From Syntrophorhabdaceae bacterium (GTDB lineage Bacteria > Desulfobacterota > Syntrophorhabdia > Syntrophorhabdales > Syntrophorhabdaceae), in assembly GCA_026415675.1 (NCBI GenBank), contig JAOAGQ010000025.1, forward strand, positions 1-55,454: a stretch of 55,454 nt of DNA, given 5' to 3'. The position numbers and the translations under genes are program-made. Under the pieces are notes generated by a model. The model saw nothing but the letters and a program-made list of their open reading frames with translations, ran no database searches and was not told where the DNA came from. Numbering within the stretch: the stretch's first letter is position 1; every line of letters starts with the position of its first letter. Shown piece after piece: positions 339 to 37,531 of the stretch.

Positions 339-1481
339 TTAACCTTTTTTGATTTTAATCTTGATAGAAAACCTATAAAAGATGGTGAGAAAGAGAAACC
401 CGAGGGCGTATATTCCTATGGAGATCAGTATTTCAGGGATGGTGGGGGAATAGGAGGGTAACTCGTTTAATGGGGACGGGATAAAGCCGGTTACGACAAA
501 GCCAACCCCTTTCTCTATCCATATGGAGATGATAATCGCTATCGAGGCCCCCATGAATACCCATTCATTCTTTCTTGTTCCCGAATATAGGAGAAAAAAT
601 GCGGATAACCAGGAAAGGATAAGGGAAAACCATATATAGACCGCATAGGGAGGTTCTTTAAGCATGATCCTAAAATGTTCGGTATGTTCCGGGATAGCGC
701 TATAAAAGACGGTGAAAAGCTCAACAAGAAAAAAGAAGATATTGATTATAAGTGCATAGGTCATAATCTGGACGAGTTTCTCGATTGCCTGTCTGCCTGC
801 ATCAAATCCGGTTGTCCTTTTGATAATCATACAGAGGAGGAGAAGCATGGCGGGGCCTGAGGCAAAGGCAGAGGCAAGAAAACGAGGAGCAAGGAGGGCG
901 GTCAACCAGAAAGGTCTTGCCCCGAGCCCTGAGTATATAAAGGCAGTTACAGTATGGATACTCACCGCCCAGGGAATGGAAATTAAGACAAAAGGTTTTA
1001 GCCATTTCGGGGTAGGCTCCGAATGCTCTTCTGCCTTTAAGGTTTGCCATGCCACCAAGAGGTTGAGGATTAGATAACCGCTTAAGACAAACACATCCCA
1101 GAAGAGCAAAGATCTTGGAGAGGGGTGGAGGATGATGTTCAAGACCCTTGAAGGCTCCCCTAAGTCCACAAAGACGAAAAGGATCGCCATTAATACCGCG
1201 GATACAGCGAGAAACTCCCCGAGAACGGTAATCTTCCCGAAGGCTTTGTAGTTATGGATGTAATAAGGCAGGACAACCATAACCGCCGAGGCTGCAACAC
1301 CAACAAGGAAAGTGAAATTGGCGATATAGAGCCCCCATGATACATCCCTTCCCATCCCCGTTATCGACAACCCTTCCCTCAACTGTATGAGGTAACAGCT
1401 AAAACCTGACAGGATAAGGATGAGAAGAAGGCATAACCATACCCATAAAGACCTGCCTTCCTGTTGTGTCTTATCCATCAT
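339..1481 (-). CDS. dsrP: DsrP, NrfD-family membrane subunit of the DsrMKJOP complex
   Basis: This 380-residue polytopic protein belongs to the NrfD/PsrC family of quinone-interacting integral membrane subunits. Several hydrophobic segments are visible along its whole length, starting near residue 13. Directly upstream on the same strand are a Tat-exported ferredoxin, a triheme cytochrome, an HdrD-like protein and a NarI-like protein, exactly the dsrM-K-J-O-P order, so the call rests on family plus synteny. In sulfur-metabolising bacteria DsrP is thought to exchange electrons between the menaquinone pool and DsrO/DsrJ. The start has two consecutive ATG codons behind a GGTGAG-like ribosome site; either could be used. 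It is the last gene of the operon, 21 nt after dsrO. Confidence 0.9.
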   Translation of the reverse strand: MMDKTQQEGRSLWVWLCLLLILILSGFSCYLIQLREGLSITGMGRDVSWGLYIANFTFLVGVAASAVMVVLPYYIHNYKAFGKITVLGEFLAVSAVLMAILFVFVDLGEPSRVLNIILHPSPRSLLFWDVFVLSGYLILNLLVAWQTLKAEEHSEPTPKWLKPFVLISIPWAVSIHTVTAFIYSGLGARPFWLTALLAPRFLASAFASGPAMLLLLCMIIKRTTGFDAGRQAIEKLVQIMTYALIINIFFFLVELFTVFYSAIPEHTEHFRIMLKEPPYAVYIWFSLILSWLSAFFLLYSGTRKNEWVFMGASIAIIISIWIEKGVGFVVTGFIPSPLNELPSYSPTIPEILISIGIYALGFLFLTIFYRFSIKIKIKKG

Positions 1482-1502: not shown

Positions 1503-2249
1503 TTATAGAACATAATAGACCCTGGGCTTTGTTCCCAAATGTGTCTTCCTTGCTATGATATGTCTATCCTTTATGGATGGATATGAATCGAGTCTTCCCG
1601 CACTTGTGTCCACAAGAGCCATACCTTTATGCTTGCATGCCTCGACACAGGCAGGGAGTTTGTTTAACGCTATCCTCTCTTCGCATAGGCTACATTTTTC
1701 TACAACACCCTTTGTTCTTGTGGGATAGTCGGGATTTATCTTTTTTATATACGGTCTTGGTTCCCTCCAGTTAAAGCTCCTCGCCCCATAGGGACATGCG
1801 GCCATGCAGTATCTGCAACCTATGCAACGGTGGTAGTCCATCATTACGATCCCGTCCTCCCTTTTCCATGTAGCCTTTGTGGGACAGACCTTTACGCAGG
1901 GCGGGTTTTCACAGTGATTGCAAAGTACAGGTATGGGGATCGACGGTAGTCTCTCCTTTGTCAATTCAAGGGCCGAATCGTGGAAGACATCCCCGTATCG
2001 GGCCTTCCAGATCCACTTTACCTCATCCTTTCTGTTATTAAAATCAGGGATATTGTGGGTCAAAACACAGGCATCGACACAGTCTCTACATTCGGGGTTT
2101 TTTAAGCATACCCCAATATCTATGACCATTGCCCATCTCTTTACATTTTGTGGGGAGGCATAGACCTTACCGAAAAGGCTATCTCCCATACCCAGGGTGA
2201 CGCCTGCAAGGGTAATCCCTGTAATTTTTATAAATTTCCTTCTATCCAT
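1503..2249 (-). CDS. dsrO: DsrO, periplasmic ferredoxin-like iron-sulfur subunit
   Basis: This 248-residue protein opens with a twin-arginine signal (RRKFIK at residues 3-8, then a hydrophobic stretch to about residue 31), so the mature protein should be exported folded by Tat. Cysteine clusters follow: a CLKNPEC..C region near 48-60, CNHCENPPCVKVCP, CIGCRYCMAACP and a late CSLC plus CVEAC pair, typical of the multi-[4Fe-4S] subunits that partner NrfD proteins. In the Dsr complex it is the likely electron carrier between DsrP and the periplasmic heme protein DsrJ. It lies 4 nt after dsrJ and 21 nt before dsrP. A tatA/B-tatC pair sits about 10 kb away in this window. Confidence 0.92.
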   Translation of the reverse strand: MDRRKFIKITGITLAGVTLGMGDSLFGKVYASPQNVKRWAMVIDIGVCLKNPECRDCVDACVLTHNIPDFNNRKDEVKWIWKARYGDVFHDSALELTKERLPSIPIPVLCNHCENPPCVKVCPTKATWKREDGIVMMDYHRCIGCRYCMAACPYGARSFNWREPRPYIKKINPDYPTRTKGVVEKCSLCEERIALNKLPACVEACKHKGMALVDTSAGRLDSYPSIKDRHIIARKTHLGTKPRVYYVL

Positions 2250-2253
2250 CTAT

Positions 2254-2652
2254 CTATACCTTTGAACCTTCCTCCTTTGGTATATTATGGCAATCCCAGC
2301 ATTTTGGTGTTTTAACACCACTATACCCGTGGCACCTGTCACAAAACCCGGCCTTATCGATATGGCAGGAGAGACACGTCCCGGTGAGGCTTATCCTATA
2401 TACCTTACCATCCAACCCTTTATATGTCCTTATCCCTTTCCTTACCGCATCATCCCGCCATTTGATGAGAAGGTCCATGTGGTTTGACCTCATAAACATC
2501 CGTTCTTCTATACAGCTCTTTTCTTCTTTCGGCATGCTAAGTTTAAGGGACGGTTCTACCTTCCCTGATAGGGCATTATACCAGAGGGGGCTTAGAAGGA
2601 TTATGAGAAAAACAACTAAACCTGTAATCACCTTTCCTTTATCGTATACCAT
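2254..2652 (-). CDS. dsrJ: DsrJ, membrane-anchored triheme cytochrome c
   Basis: This 132-residue protein has one N-terminal hydrophobic anchor (about residues 8-25) and three CxxCH heme c motifs at 93-97, 104-108 and 118-122. That is the size and heme count of DsrJ. A single cysteine at residue 47 lies in the position where DsrJ proteins carry the cysteine proposed as an unusual heme ligand; this comparison is from knowledge of the family, not alignment. It would act on the periplasmic side with DsrO. The gene sits 28 nt after dsrK and 4 nt before dsrO. Confidence 0.92.
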   Translation of the reverse strand: MVYDKGKVITGLVVFLIILLSPLWYNALSGKVEPSLKLSMPKEEKSCIEERMFMRSNHMDLLIKWRDDAVRKGIRTYKGLDGKVYRISLTGTCLSCHIDKAGFCDRCHGYSGVKTPKCWDCHNIPKEEGSKV

Positions 2653-2680: not shown

Positions 2681-4258
2681 TCAATCCGTCAGGGGTTCGC
2701 CCCTTAAATTTTTCTCCCTTACCTTTTCCCCTTTCATCAAAAGGGCATTTCCAACAAGTTCATGGACACCGCAGACCTCAACGCCTGATACCCAGTAATC
2801 GAGTAGTTGAGGCAATGAAGCCTTATCTATAGCGCACATGCAGGCAACCATATTTACCCCATGCTTTTCCTTTACGTATTTGACGGCATTTGCCCTGGGG
2901 AAACCGCCTTTGAGCCTCATCTCGAGGTTTTCATCGGCACCGAGGCCTGCCCCACTGCCGCAGCAGAATGTCTTCTCCCTGATGGTGTTCTCAGGCATCT
3001 CGTAAAAATTGTTGCATACCTTTTTTATAATGTACCGGGGTTCCTCGAGGAGCCCCATGGACCTCGCGGTGTTACAGGAATCGTGGAATGTGACTACCCA
3101 TCTATCATTTCTCGTTTTATCGAGTCTTAATTTATTGTTGTATATGAGATCCGCGGTGAATTCCGAAATGTGTACCATCTTGGTCGATTTTGCCTGCTCG
3201 AACCTTGTGCCTGTGATGGGCGATACGGGAACCTCGAGAAAATCGGCAGGACCGTTCATGGTGTCCATGTACTGGTGTATAACCCTCCACATATGGCCGC
3301 ACTCACCCCCTAAAATCCATTTTACCCCGAGCCTCTTTGCCTCTGCATATATCTTTGCATTTAGCCTTTTCATAAGCTCCGAAGAATGGAAGAGGCCGAA
3401 ATTACCCCCCTCTGAGGCGTAGGTGCTCCACGTGTAGTCGAGACCTATCTCATGGAATAGCATGAGATAACCGAGGAATGTATACCAGTGAGGGTTTGCA
3501 AAATAGTCTGCCGAAGGGGCAACAAAGAGTATCTCCGCCCCCTTCCTGTTTATCGGTGCCTCAACGGAAAGACCTGTCAGATCCTTTATCTCATCGAGGG
3601 CGAAATCGAAGGTCTCCTTCATCGCATGGGGGGGGACACCGAGATGGTTGCCCGTTCTGAAGCAGTTTGATGCAGGCTCTACCACCCACTGTATATTACA
3701 CCCAACGAGGTTCAATAGTTCTCTTACCATCATGGTGATTTCACATGTATCTATCCCGTAGGGGCAGTAAACGGAGCAGCGTCTACACTCTGTGCACTGG
3801 AAAAAGTAATAAAACCACTCTTTTATAACATCCTCTGTAAGCTCCCTTGCCCCGACCAGTTCACCAAAGAGTCTCCCTGATACGGTAAAATACCTTTTAT
3901 AAACAGAACGTATCAACTCTGCCCTTAGAACAGGCATGTTGTTCGGGTCCCCCGTTCCAAGAAAGAAATGGCATTTATCCCCGCAGGCCCCGCATCTCAC
4001 ACAGATATCGAGAAAAAGCCTGAAGGAGCGGTGCCTTTTTAAGAGTTTTGCCATGCCCTCGAGTATGATCTCCTTCCAGTTTTTGGGGAGCTTCCAGTCC
4101 AAATCCGCGGGATTCCATTCCCTCGGATTTGGAAGGCCAAGATAGTTCTGATGTTTAAGGGGGGCGCTGTAACAGTACGTGCCCTTTCTAAAGAGTTGCT
4201 CCTCTTTTTTCGGTGATTGCAAATCTACATCGTTTAATATCTCTTCCGCCTTTTTCAT
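2681..4258 (-). CDS. dsrK: DsrK, HdrD-like catalytic iron-sulfur subunit
   Basis: This 525-residue cytoplasmic protein has two [4Fe-4S] binding motifs (CVRCGACGDKC and CTECRRCSVYC, roughly residues 86-185). The C-terminal half resembles the CCG domain of heterodisulfide reductase, with DSCN, FCCGSG and CMCAID elements. In DsrK this domain is thought to carry a special [4Fe-4S] centre that reduces the DsrC trisulfide during sulfite reduction. No dsrC or dsrAB is present in the window. It starts 6 nt after dsrM, with a purine-rich ribosome site directly before the ATG. Length and synteny fit DsrK rather than HdrD or GlcD-type relatives. Confidence 0.92.
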   Translation of the reverse strand: MKKAEEILNDVDLQSPKKEEQLFRKGTYCYSAPLKHQNYLGLPNPREWNPADLDWKLPKNWKEIILEGMAKLLKRHRSFRLFLDICVRCGACGDKCHFFLGTGDPNNMPVLRAELIRSVYKRYFTVSGRLFGELVGARELTEDVIKEWFYYFFQCTECRRCSVYCPYGIDTCEITMMVRELLNLVGCNIQWVVEPASNCFRTGNHLGVPPHAMKETFDFALDEIKDLTGLSVEAPINRKGAEILFVAPSADYFANPHWYTFLGYLMLFHEIGLDYTWSTYASEGGNFGLFHSSELMKRLNAKIYAEAKRLGVKWILGGECGHMWRVIHQYMDTMNGPADFLEVPVSPITGTRFEQAKSTKMVHISEFTADLIYNNKLRLDKTRNDRWVVTFHDSCNTARSMGLLEEPRYIIKKVCNNFYEMPENTIREKTFCCGSGAGLGADENLEMRLKGGFPRANAVKYVKEKHGVNMVACMCAIDKASLPQLLDYWVSGVEVCGVHELVGNALLMKGEKVREKNLRGEPLTD

Positions 4259-4264
4259 CCTCTC

Positions 4265-5260
4265 TCAGTTTTCCTTTTCTACAGGTAGACCCACATCCTT
4301 CATGGCAGCCCTGAACTCATCCTCCCATTCCTCATAGGTATGGACCAAAACGGGATAATCCCAGGGGTTTATATGCCTCTCCATCCTGCTCGAATTTTTG
4401 AGGTTTCTCGTAGGGCTAAAGAAAACCCCTGCCATATGGATAAGTTTGCTGAATGGCAGATAGGATAGTAGGGTCGCCACAAGAAATAGATGTATATAAA
4501 AGATGGTATTTGACTCCTTGGGAAGGGAAGGGTTGAATGAGAAAAGGCCGATCAGAAAAGCCTTTATCCCCATGATATCCACCTTCTGGACATGCCTTAT
4601 GAGAAGGCCTGTTATAACAATGGCGAAGATGAGCATCAAGGGGAAATAATCCGTAGAAATCGAGATGTACCTTGTCTGGGGATCGAATAACCTCCTGAAA
4701 AAAAGATATATGATACCTAAAAGGATAAGGAGATCCGTGATTAGAAGAGGGGGGGTAAATAGCTCAAATAGACCATCTAAACCATAGATAAACTCAACAA
4801 AAGATGGTACAGGCTCAAGAAAAAGCCTTAAGTGTCTGATTATGATAATGAATAATGACCAGTGGAAGAGAACCCCCCCGAACCAGAGCAGGAGGTTTCT
4901 ATAGAAGAGGAGTCTTCCCCCTGTCTTTAATCTCCCCTTTTCATTTCTCAGAAGGGAACGGAAAAAGAGTACCTCAAGGAGCATCCTTTTTATAACACCC
5001 CATGAGGTGTGGGGGCTCTCTATCTTATTCTGCCTTATCCAGGGAAGGGATTTTGCCTGACCGCATACGGTGGGGATAGAAAATGGCACCGGGGATTTTG
5101 CCCATATAATCACCCTGTATATTACCCCTGAGATGAAGATTAGAAAGGCTCCATATAGGACTACAATGCCAAAGAGGGCCTTCATATTGAAAAGACCGAT
5201 GCCTATCCCCGGGATAAGTATCAAAAAAAGGGTCAGTAAGGATGCGTAAAGAACGGGCAT
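4265..5260 (-). CDS. dsrM: DsrM, NarI-like cytochrome b membrane subunit
   Basis: This 331-residue membrane protein resembles the di-heme cytochrome b (NarI/HdrE-like) family: several transmembrane segments, with histidines near FHWSLF, IRH and LIH that could be heme ligands. With DsrK it forms the menaquinol-to-cytoplasm branch of the complex. It is the first gene of the dsrMKJOP operon. No Shine-Dalgarno is visible before the ATG, and a good promoter (5274-5301) ends only 13 nt upstream, so translation may begin on a leaderless or nearly leaderless mRNA. An internal ATG at residue 26 also lacks a ribosome site, so I keep the long start. Confidence 0.9.
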   Translation of the reverse strand: MPVLYASLLTLFLILIPGIGIGLFNMKALFGIVVLYGAFLIFISGVIYRVIIWAKSPVPFSIPTVCGQAKSLPWIRQNKIESPHTSWGVIKRMLLEVLFFRSLLRNEKGRLKTGGRLLFYRNLLLWFGGVLFHWSLFIIIIRHLRLFLEPVPSFVEFIYGLDGLFELFTPPLLITDLLILLGIIYLFFRRLFDPQTRYISISTDYFPLMLIFAIVITGLLIRHVQKVDIMGIKAFLIGLFSFNPSLPKESNTIFYIHLFLVATLLSYLPFSKLIHMAGVFFSPTRNLKNSSRMERHINPWDYPVLVHTYEEWEDEFRAAMKDVGLPVEKEN

Positions 5261-5273
5261 AGACAGAAATATT

Positions 5274-5301
5274 TTTATATCTACACTATCAGGGAAGTCA
5301 A
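5274..5301 (-). promoter_or_regulatory. Predicted sigma-70 promoter of dsrMKJOP
   Basis: On the minus strand TTGACT (complement of 5296-5301) and TATAAA (complement of 5274-5279) are separated by 16 nt; each matches the consensus at 5 of 6 positions. The -10 box ends 13 nt before the dsrM ATG, so the transcript would have a leader of only about 6 nt. Confidence 0.6.
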
Positions 5302-5347: not shown

Positions 5348-6232
5348 TTAGGCCTTGCCTATGTCTTTTCCCATCGATTTCCAGAAATGTTCCTCAATAT
5401 CCGTGGTAAGGTGGTTCATGCCCTCCATATCCATCATCTTTACCCTCATATCATAGGCTGCCTCGAGCTGGGGCAATAGCATCCTCACCTCAGGAGAGGC
5501 CTCAAGTTTCTTGTTGATCATCTCCCTCTGTTCCAGGGCCTTTTCGTAACCTTCTGTATCGAGGGGTATGTTATAGAGTAGATTGAGTATCTCCATGAGC
5601 CTCATCTTGCCCATATAATCCTCTTCGAGGACTATATACTGGGGCAGGGATACTATAAAGACGTTTGCCTCGATACCCATCTCTTCCGCACCCTTTGTTA
5701 TGAGGTGGATGATAGTTGAAGGGCCATGATACGTTATAGGCATGGCACAGGCCCTCTTTGCATCGAGGATCGCCTCTTCTCCCAGTCCATAACCATTTAC
5801 GATAAGGGGTTTTGTATGGGGCACAGTATCATACATGCTTCCCAGTAAAATATACCTCTTAACGTTGAGGATGGATAAGATTTTCAATACGGATCTCACA
5901 TAGAGTTCGGAGAAGGCATGGGGCTCTAAAAGATGGAGGAAGAGAAAATCGGGCTCCCCATCCCTTTTTGCAAAAAAAATCTCTGTATTAGGGATCGTCA
6001 AATCCCTGATGCCCTCCTCGAGATGGATTATAGGCCTATATCTCGTGAAATCGTAGAACAGGCCGGGCCTAGCCAGTTCCCCGATCTTTCGAGCTTTAAA
6101 TCTCCCCTCGAGCTCCTGAAGTATCATCGTCCCTACGCCGTTCACATCTATCCAGGGCCTAAGGCTTGCAAAAACATAGATATCTTTTTCATCAGGTATA
6201 AAATCCCAGATATTGAACGCACCGATTTTCAT
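5348..6232 (-). CDS. PAC2-family protein
   Basis: This 294-residue soluble protein resembles the PAC2 (proteasome-assembly-chaperone-2-like) superfamily found in archaea, actinobacteria and some deltaproteobacteria. The central part has the family-like pattern of a hydrophobic strand, GSMYDTVPHTKP, a VNGYGLGEEA turn and a GPSTIIHL segment. The C-terminal third is helical and charged. The bacterial role of these proteins is poorly defined. It lies 87 nt upstream of dsrM in the same direction, but dsrM has its own promoter, so co-transcription is possible rather than certain. A GCAGGGTG ribosome site precedes the ATG. Confidence 0.7.
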   Translation of the reverse strand: MKIGAFNIWDFIPDEKDIYVFASLRPWIDVNGVGTMILQELEGRFKARKIGELARPGLFYDFTRYRPIIHLEEGIRDLTIPNTEIFFAKRDGEPDFLFLHLLEPHAFSELYVRSVLKILSILNVKRYILLGSMYDTVPHTKPLIVNGYGLGEEAILDAKRACAMPITYHGPSTIIHLITKGAEEMGIEANVFIVSLPQYIVLEEDYMGKMRLMEILNLLYNIPLDTEGYEKALEQREMINKKLEASPEVRMLLPQLEAAYDMRVKMMDMEGMNHLTTDIEEHFWKSMGKDIGKA

Positions 6233-6250: not shown

Positions 6251-6280
6251 AATCTAATGCTGATTACGATTACCTGTCAA
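6251..6280 (-). promoter_or_regulatory. Possible promoter of the PAC2 gene
   Basis: A perfect TTGACA -35 (complement of 6275-6280) lies on the minus strand, with a weak TAGATT -10 (complement of 6251-6256) after 18 nt. The -10 match is poor, so only the -35 is persuasive. Confidence 0.35.
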
Positions 6281-6407: not shown

Positions 6408-8402
6408 TTGAAAAAAGGCATTGAAGACATGTCGATGGTGATATTCCAGCCCTCAGGGAGAAGGGGTTATATAGAGAAAGGAAGAACGATAAAGGATGCC
6501 TCGGAGAGCCTCGGTGTTGATATAGAGGGCATCTGCGGGGAGAGGGGTGTTTGCGGGAAATGTAAGGTGAGGATCGAAGAGGGTATCTTTGAGAAGTACG
6601 GTGTGGTATCGAAGAGGGAGAACCTCTCCCAACTTAAAGAATCGGAGGGGAAATACCTCTCTAAAAAAGAGATAGACGGAGGTTTTAGGCTCGCCTGTCA
6701 GGCCCGTATACAGGGGGATATCGTTATCTTTGTCCCTGAAGAGAGTAGGAGAGAGAAACAGATAGTGAGAAAGGAGGCAAGACACATACCGATAGAGGTA
6801 AAACCTGCTGTAAAAAAGTATTACGTGGAACTCCCGAAGGCAAACCTTAAGGATACGACAGGGGACTGGGAGAGGCTTCAGGAAGCCCTTTTTAAAATAT
6901 ACGGTCTTACAAATTTAAGGATAGATTATCAGGTGCTCCTTGTCCTCCAGGATGTCATCCGTGAAGGGGACTGGAAGATCACGGTCTCCGTCTGGCAGGA
7001 TAAAGAGGTGATAAAGGTGGAGCCCGGGGAGGTAAAGAGTAGCTTTGGCCTTGCCGTAGATGTGGGAACGACAACGGTGGCCGCCTATCTCTCCGACCTG
7101 AGGACAGGAGAACTCGTTGCAACAGAATCGATGATGAACCCCCAGGTGGTATACGGGGAGGATGTGATGTCGAGGATATCTTTTACTATCAACCGTCCCG
7201 ATGGTCTAAAACGGATGAATGGGGCGATCATTGAGGGTTTAAACGGACTCATAGGGGAGATCGCCTCTATAGCCCATATCAAAACAACGGATATTGTGGA
7301 TATGACGATTGTGGGGAATACCTGCATGCACCATCTTTTTTTAAATATCAACCCTGCCCATATAGGTCGCTCTCCCTTCCCCCCTGCCATCCACCATTCC
7401 CTTGATATAAAGGCGAGGGAGTTCGGTATGCCTGCGATACGGGATAATGTTTCATCGGGGAATATAGGGGCAGGGCTATGTATATCTCCAGGGGCCTATG
7501 TCCATGTGCTCCCCGTTGAGGCAGGATTTGTAGGTGCTGACAACGTTGCGGTCCTCATCGCAGAGACCCCCTATTTCAAAGAGGAGATAGAGTTGATCAT
7601 AGATATAGGCACAAATGGAGAGCTCCTTCTCGGGAACAAAGAGAGGATCCTCTGTGCCTCCTGTGCCACAGGCCCTGCCTTTGAGGGGGCCGAGATACGG
7701 TTTGGTATGAGGGCAGCGAAGGGGGCGATAGAGAAGGTATATATAGACAGAAAGACGAAAGATGTGAGGTTCAAGGTGATAGGGAGGGAAGAGTGGAACG
7801 ATGAAGTGGACAATATAGGTGCTAAAGGCATATGTGGTTCCGGGATCATAGACGGAGTATCCCAGTTATACCTTGCGGGGATAATAGATAAGACAGGTCG
7901 CATAAGGGATTTAAAGGGGAACCCCCGCTACAGGATAGAGAACGGTCAGGCAGAGTATGTGATAGCATGGGCCCGGGAGACCACAATCGGTGAGGATATT
8001 GTTATCTGTCAGAAGGATATAAGGGCTGTCCAGCTTGCTAAAGGGGCGATGTACGCCGGGGCAAAGGTGATGATGAAGGTGCTTGGGGTGGAAAGGGTCG
8101 ACAGGGTGATTCTGGCAGGGGGGTTCGGTACCTATATCGATAAAATCTCCGCGGCCATCCTCGGTATGTTCCCTTCCTGTGAGTTAGAGCATATATATTC
8201 TATCGGAAACGCTGCAGGGGATGGGGCGAGGATGGCGCTTTTGAACGTGGACAAGAGGAAAGAGGCGGATCTTTACGGGAGAAAGACGGAATATATAGAA
8301 CTCACGATTGAGGCGGATTTTAACAAAGAATTTGCCCAGGCCATGGGGATACCCCATATGAAGGATACCTTCCCCCATTTAGAATCGATTCTCCCCCCTT
8401 GA
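6408..8402 (+). CDS. Ferredoxin/ASKHA-domain protein, RACo-like corrinoid-activation ATPase
   Basis: This 664-residue protein has an N-terminal plant-type [2Fe-2S] domain (Cys43, Cys49, Cys52, Cys97), a middle linker, and from about residue 212 an ASKHA ATPase fold opening with VDVGTTT. This is the architecture of RACo/RamA-type activators (DUF4445 region), which use ATP to reduce inactive cob(II)amide in corrinoid methyl-transfer proteins. No corrinoid protein or methyltransferase is adjacent, so its partner is unknown. The chosen start is TTG behind a clear AGGAAAGGGG ribosome site; an in-frame ATG at 6429 is the alternative. It is a single-gene unit, divergent from the PAC2 gene and convergent with glmS. 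Confidence 0.82.
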   Translation: MKKGIEDMSMVIFQPSGRRGYIEKGRTIKDASESLGVDIEGICGERGVCGKCKVRIEEGIFEKYGVVSKRENLSQLKESEGKYLSKKEIDGGFRLACQARIQGDIVIFVPEESRREKQIVRKEARHIPIEVKPAVKKYYVELPKANLKDTTGDWERLQEALFKIYGLTNLRIDYQVLLVLQDVIREGDWKITVSVWQDKEVIKVEPGEVKSSFGLAVDVGTTTVAAYLSDLRTGELVATESMMNPQVVYGEDVMSRISFTINRPDGLKRMNGAIIEGLNGLIGEIASIAHIKTTDIVDMTIVGNTCMHHLFLNINPAHIGRSPFPPAIHHSLDIKAREFGMPAIRDNVSSGNIGAGLCISPGAYVHVLPVEAGFVGADNVAVLIAETPYFKEEIELIIDIGTNGELLLGNKERILCASCATGPAFEGAEIRFGMRAAKGAIEKVYIDRKTKDVRFKVIGREEWNDEVDNIGAKGICGSGIIDGVSQLYLAGIIDKTGRIRDLKGNPRYRIENGQAEYVIAWARETTIGEDIVICQKDIRAVQLAKGAMYAGAKVMMKVLGVERVDRVILAGGFGTYIDKISAAILGMFPSCELEHIYSIGNAAGDGARMALLNVDKRKEADLYGRKTEYIELTIEADFNKEFAQAMGIPHMKDTFPHLESILPP

Positions 8403-12709: not shown

Positions 12710-12836
12710 GATGGTTTATAGGTTAGCACAAAACCGAATCGAGGTAAAAGGAAAATGAGTCTAACGTATTTGAAGCCTTGATTTTTTCGAGCAGGTATGG
12801 CTTATTGAATATCATGGAAAAAACGGAGGTAGAAGT

Positions 12837-26184: not shown

Positions 26185-26213
26185 ATCGTATGGGAATCGA
26201 TTGGAATTGTCAA
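26185..26213 (-). promoter_or_regulatory. Predicted sigma-70 promoter abutting the GT9 gene
   Basis: On the minus strand TTGACA (complement of 26208-26213) lies 17 nt from TACGAT (complement of 26185-26190), which in turn ends 12 nt before the ATG at 26172. The -35 is perfect and the -10 matches at 4 of 6 positions. Confidence 0.5.
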
Positions 26214-37502: not shown

Positions 37503-37531
37503 ATTATAAGATTTAGCTTTTCCGTTTGCAA
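37503..37531 (-). promoter_or_regulatory. Sigma-70 promoter abutting xseB
   Basis: On the minus strand TTGCAA (complement of 37526-37531) and a perfect TATAAT (complement of 37503-37508) are spaced 17 nt apart. The -10 ends 14 nt before the ATG, so the leader would be only about 7 nt long and contains no ribosome site. Confidence 0.6.

Follow-up and report, generated by a model that had tools for sequence, protein, structure and literature searches.

A candidate start-proximal promoter and a predicted near-leaderless dsrMKJOP message in a Syntrophorhabdaceae bacterium

The dsrM gene and its upstream region

How would translation of dsrMKJOP begin, if the promoter lies so close to the first gene that no Shine-Dalgarno (SD) sequence fits between them? 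The question is raised by a 55,454 nt contig of a Syntrophorhabdaceae bacterium (JAOAGQ010000025.1; this whole stretch is referred to below as the window). All five components of the DsrMKJOP complex are found there in order, each above its curated NCBIfam cut-off, with a PAC2-family gene upstream:

4265 to 5260, minus strand: dsrM, 331 aa, start ATG 5260 (DsrM equivalog, 453 bits, cut-off 300)
2681 to 4258, minus strand: dsrK (DsrK, 727 bits, cut-off 400)
2254 to 2652, minus strand: dsrJ (DsrJ, 152 bits, cut-off 100)
1503 to 2249, minus strand: dsrO (DsrO, 265 bits, cut-off 200)
339 to 1481, minus strand: dsrP (DsrP, 432 bits, cut-off 350)
5348 to 6232, minus strand: PAC2-family gene, 87 nt upstream of dsrM, a possible source of read-through (Pfam PF09754, 87 bits, cut-off 25.8)
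6251 to 6280, minus strand: candidate promoter of the PAC2 gene from the promoter scan, TTGACA-N18-TAGATT, 18 nt before its ATG

A gene at 6408-8402, divergent from PAC2, encodes a corrinoid-activation (AcsV-like) protein, which at 438 bits falls below its curated cut-off of 800. No Rfam RNA families were found in the window.

The start of dsrM at ATG 5260 appears well supported, since several homologues have their first residue here, the frame contains no ATG, GTG or TTG further upstream, and no downstream in-frame start carries an SD. A true start further into the gene, an outcome that the initial annotation had allowed for, is thus not what the homologues indicate. Immediately upstream are the following elements:

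5296 to 5301, minus strand: -35 element TTGACT (counterpart TTGACA in relative G019 and in three species of genus g12)
5280 to 5295, minus strand: spacer of 16 nt, of equal length in relatives G019, G023 and G024
5274 to 5279, minus strand: -10 element TATAAA, lacking the final T (TATAAT in G019)
5261 to 5273, minus strand: 13 nt from the -10 element to ATG, AATATTTCTGTCT, with the predicted transcription start and a leader of 4-9 nt

The minus strand therefore reads TTGACT-N16-TATAAA-N13-ATG, and the range first given for this arrangement, 5258-5301, is exact. Ten of 12 positions agree with the sigma70 consensus, with a 16 nt spacer; T6 of the -10 is absent. This final T is usually invariant, and the strict form of our promoter scan, which demands A2 and T6, therefore does not list the site. 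When the 60 nt before dsrM were dinucleotide-shuffled 5000 times, a 10/12 match (N16-18, gap to ATG of 4-15 nt) arose in 0.36%, and with a gap of 4-20 nt in 0.47%, a chance of roughly 0.4-0.5% for a site that had been picked out visually from some 20 leading genes. At a gap of 4-15 nt, no equally good match precedes any of 676 operon-internal genes. Judged by its sequence, the promoter is probably real.

The 20 nt before the ATG contain nothing resembling an SD (SD score 0), and predicted folding of the start region is weak (-1.2 kcal/mol, the same as in shuffles). The gene has an AUG start and leads its transcription unit, 87 nt from its upstream neighbor, so that read-through is possible.

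Leaderless-type promoters in the genome

The initial annotation had proposed that this organism uses leaderless or very-short-leader messages for some operons, and that most other genes have clear ribosome-binding sites. Genes were called over 1.83 Mb (71% of the genome) with a codon-usage caller blind to both SD sequences and promoters; a first pass of the promoter-gap analysis covered 46%. In the 71%, an SD of at least 4 nt precedes 54% of the leading genes and 72% of the internal ones, so the second proposal is roughly right. As to the first, the 269 leading genes without an SD have 34 promoters (at least 9/12) at gaps of 6-11 nt, compared with 2-9 in every other 6-nt bin, with maxima at 6, 7 and 9; this count excludes genes shorter than 80 aa, xseB among them. 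The 214 leading genes with an SD of at least 5 nt have only 4 promoters at this gap, and their maximum lies at about 18-47 nt; for operon-internal genes the distribution is flat. A count of close promoters without an SD against shuffled sequence, the check proposed at the outset, gave 17 genes (at least 10/12, gap 4-15) to 0.85 in the shuffles (first pass, 46% of the genome). A peak at 6-11 nt in SD-less leading genes is the signature of leaderless messages, so the general proposal holds: statistically, a genuine leaderless class, a minority of operon-leading genes, exists in this genome.

Where does dsrM stand in relation to this class? Its gap of 13 nt is longer than the 6-11 nt peak, and a strict definition, with transcription starting 0-5 nt from the start codon, does not describe it. 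At gaps of 12-17 nt, the range that includes dsrM, the excess is smaller (5 observed, 0.7 in shuffles), which puts dsrM at the edge of the class. Since 13 nt lies outside the peak, its message is predicted to be near-leaderless, with a short leader of 4-9 nt, rather than strictly leaderless; the original estimate of a start about 6 nt from the ATG falls in this range, but its strictly leaderless version is not supported. By a looser criterion used in one paper on archaea, a 5′-UTR below 8 nt (PMC10783764), dsrM could still qualify.

The same scan in E. coli gave no promoters in this class among 46 SD-less leading genes and no peak, although these numbers are small. Deinococcus radiodurans MP1 is too GC-rich for a bipartite scan; with the -10 element alone, it gave 4 at gaps of 6-11 nt and 0-1 in each other bin.

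Mis-called start codons were considered as a source of the class and rejected: downstream SD-bearing starts are found in 9% of the leaderless set, as against 12% and 17% in the comparison sets. At least one member, C5:27024 (read as a CutA-like protein), does look mis-started. For a LexA query encoded behind such a promoter, six relatives matched over residues 1-200 or nearly so, and for a 122-aa protein at C59:59524 (which we named QueD), relatives match from residue 1. The LexA-like gene in this genome (contig C28, 39084, minus strand; named from its sequence) lacks an SD, and its promoter, TTGACA-N17-TACATT, ends 7 nt upstream of the ATG.

Three other genes in the window, xseB, a GT9 gene and tatA/B, had been said to share the dsrM layout:

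37503 to 37531, minus strand: xseB promoter TTGCAA-N17-TATAAT, 14 nt before ATG 37488
26185 to 26213, minus strand: GT9 gene promoter TTGACA-N17-TACGAT, 12 nt before ATG 26172, no SD
12715 to 12720, minus strand: tatA -10-like TATAAA, 5 nt before ATG 12709, with a weak -35

All are present, but they are uneven: at tatA the likeness is limited to TATAAA-N5-ATG.

Layouts in relatives

Several dsrM orthologues of the same family also have a promoter close to the start codon and no SD. The best is in G019 (TTGACA-N16-TATAAT, 12/12, 15 nt before the ATG); G023 and G024 have TTGCTA-N16-TATAAT (10/12, 6 nt before the ATG), and the three g12 species, all of another genus (G031, G034, G036), have TTGACA-N17-TACAGT (10/12, 17 nt before [AG]TG). 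In g12 a second ATG follows in frame 5 codons after this ATG or GTG; it matches the dsrM start found here and would make the gap 32 nt. In five other genomes (G003, G004, G017, G018, G021), dsrM is operon-internal, directly behind another gene, and is preceded by an SD of 4-5 nt, with no promoter; the leaders in G022 and G030, in our reading, include an SD-like stretch. From the close promoters without SD and the internal genes with one, it follows that absence of an SD goes with a close promoter among dsrM orthologues. The gap itself varies (6, 13, 15 or 17 nt), indicating that exact placement of the start is not conserved.

Upstream of dsrM at L005, L007 and L008, in three species of one genus, a block CCGGTTGCTCTGCTACAGTGGAAA is conserved across the spacer and the -10 (TGC-TACAGT, an extended -10). 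It is possibly a regulator site.

In the 39 genomes of the family, the exact pattern TTGAC-N17-19-TATAAT-N6-11-ATG occurs 227 times, compared with 135 at a control gap of 24-29 nt (P 1.5e-6); in the rest of the phylum, the corresponding counts are 207 and 181, with no significant excess (P 0.20), and the family differs from the rest at P 0.01. These P values treat matches as independent, while related species share some of them. A light sample of four relatives (G024, G004, G026, G018; 387 kb), with 7 SD-less leading promoters at gaps of 6-11 nt and 0-3 in other bins, is suggestive only of the same class. The species of genus g4 (G005-G016) have leaderless-type promoters in common, TTGACTTTGCGGAGATTAGACCTTATAATCTCCGCATG being one example, so that the layout is conserved within this genus.

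Possible explanations

The promoter match, the missing SD, the agreement on the start codon, the genome-wide peak and the layouts in relatives can be read directly from DNA, and from them we infer where dsrM transcription would start and how its message might be translated. In the reading we prefer, to which we give a probability of about 0.7, a sigma70-type promoter just before dsrM would start transcription some 4-9 nt upstream of the AUG, and the dsrMKJOP message would have no room for an SD in its leader; dsrM would then be translated by direct recognition of a nearly 5′-terminal AUG, as on leaderless mRNAs, and would be a full or borderline member of a minority of operon-leading genes, in this genome and its family, whose messages have no leader or a very short one. 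Against it stand the -10 without T6, the gap off the peak, the variable gap in orthologues, and the route by read-through from the PAC2 gene, with its own candidate promoter.

The last of these leads to an alternative: the match is due to chance, and dsrM is read through from the PAC2 promoter and translated without an SD where the sequence is AT-rich and weakly structured, possibly with the aid of ribosomal protein S1. The weak -10, the nearness of the PAC2 gene and its promoter, the weak predicted folding around the start and the AT-rich upstream sequence are all consistent with this, but it seems unlikely, given the rarity of such a match in shuffles and the stronger promoter that G019 has in this position. 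Among the relatives checked, including G023, G024 and g12 with their close promoters, no PAC2 gene was found ahead of dsrM either, and where dsrM is operon-internal in relatives it has an SD, as read-through would favor.

As a second alternative, the promoter could be real but the leader longer or mixed, or the starts several, giving a short leader without an SD that is not functionally leaderless. The gaps of 13 nt here, 15 in G019 and 17 in g12 (32 if counted to its second start) point that way. Even so, gaps of 13-17 nt leave a leader of at most about 11 nt, provided that transcription begins 6-8 nt from the -10, and an SD is absent in all of these; this explanation is distinctly unlikely. 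A start of dsrM elsewhere (TTG codon 13, ATG codon 26, or a non-standard codon upstream), with the promoter distance misjudged, is very improbable in view of the homologues and start codons described above, although the NCBIfam model aligns only from residue 12 and the frame is open for 17 codons upstream.

A bolder step can be considered: near-leaderless translation of dsrMKJOP might be a conserved regulatory design in the family, by which capacity for sulfite respiration would track the state of ribosomes and of initiation factors, the strong SD being retained by dsrAB. This is speculative, and we think it unlikely.

Probably sulfite rather than sulfate

The genome (99% complete) has dsrA, with a strong SD and with its only stop at the ordinary stop codon, as well as dsrMKJOP; no match to sat (sopT/sat) and no aprA above cut-off were found in it, although a gene may have been missed. 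Sulfate reducers are recognized by sat and aprAB in addition to dsrAB, and this combination was not found, making the label "sulfate reducer" doubtful. With dsrA and dsrMKJOP but neither sat nor an above-cut-off aprA, respiration of sulfite or organosulfonates appears more likely than reduction of sulfate.

Comparison with known systems

The leaderless strategy is already known; for this family or for dsrMKJOP no description was found in open-access papers. The open-access literature yielded nothing relevant on leaderless transcripts of sulfate reducers or Desulfovibrio, nor on a mapped promoter of dsrMKJOP, with subscription papers mostly outside the scope of these searches. The view that such messages would be unusual in sulfate-reducer genetics is nevertheless hard to maintain: apart from the doubtful label, leaderless genes had been predicted in 207 of 953 bacterial genomes, including 8 of 33 delta-proteobacterial ones, the latter at 5.7-20.6% of genes (Zheng et al., 2011; PMC3160421). 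With the present counts, a Syntrophorhabdaceae-like family is added to the bacteria in which a leaderless class can be shown statistically, and annotation of start codons in this family should not rest on SD sequences alone. A testable prediction is that dsrMKJOP is translated without a ribosome-binding site, in contrast to dsrA, with its strong SD, in the same genome.

The TA-led leaderless genes of that survey (PMC3160421) resemble those found here in that a -10-like signal stands some 10 bp ahead of the start and the genes are leading ones without an SD; the class here seems smaller (34 bipartite promoters in 579 leading genes examined), and the 13 nt gap of dsrM is longer than typical. In Deinococcus-Thermus, roughly one gene in three has its -10 adjacent to the ORF, and the -35 is described as an additional, enhancing element (PMC12340547). 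The likeness again lies in a -10 next to the start codon, a 5′-UTR absent or very short, and translation without a ribosome-binding site; unlike those, the promoters here are bipartite and their class a minority. A third comparison is with the orthologous, SD-led dsrM genes of the five relatives in which the gene is operon-internal, where a position close behind another gene and an SD take the place of the proximal promoter.
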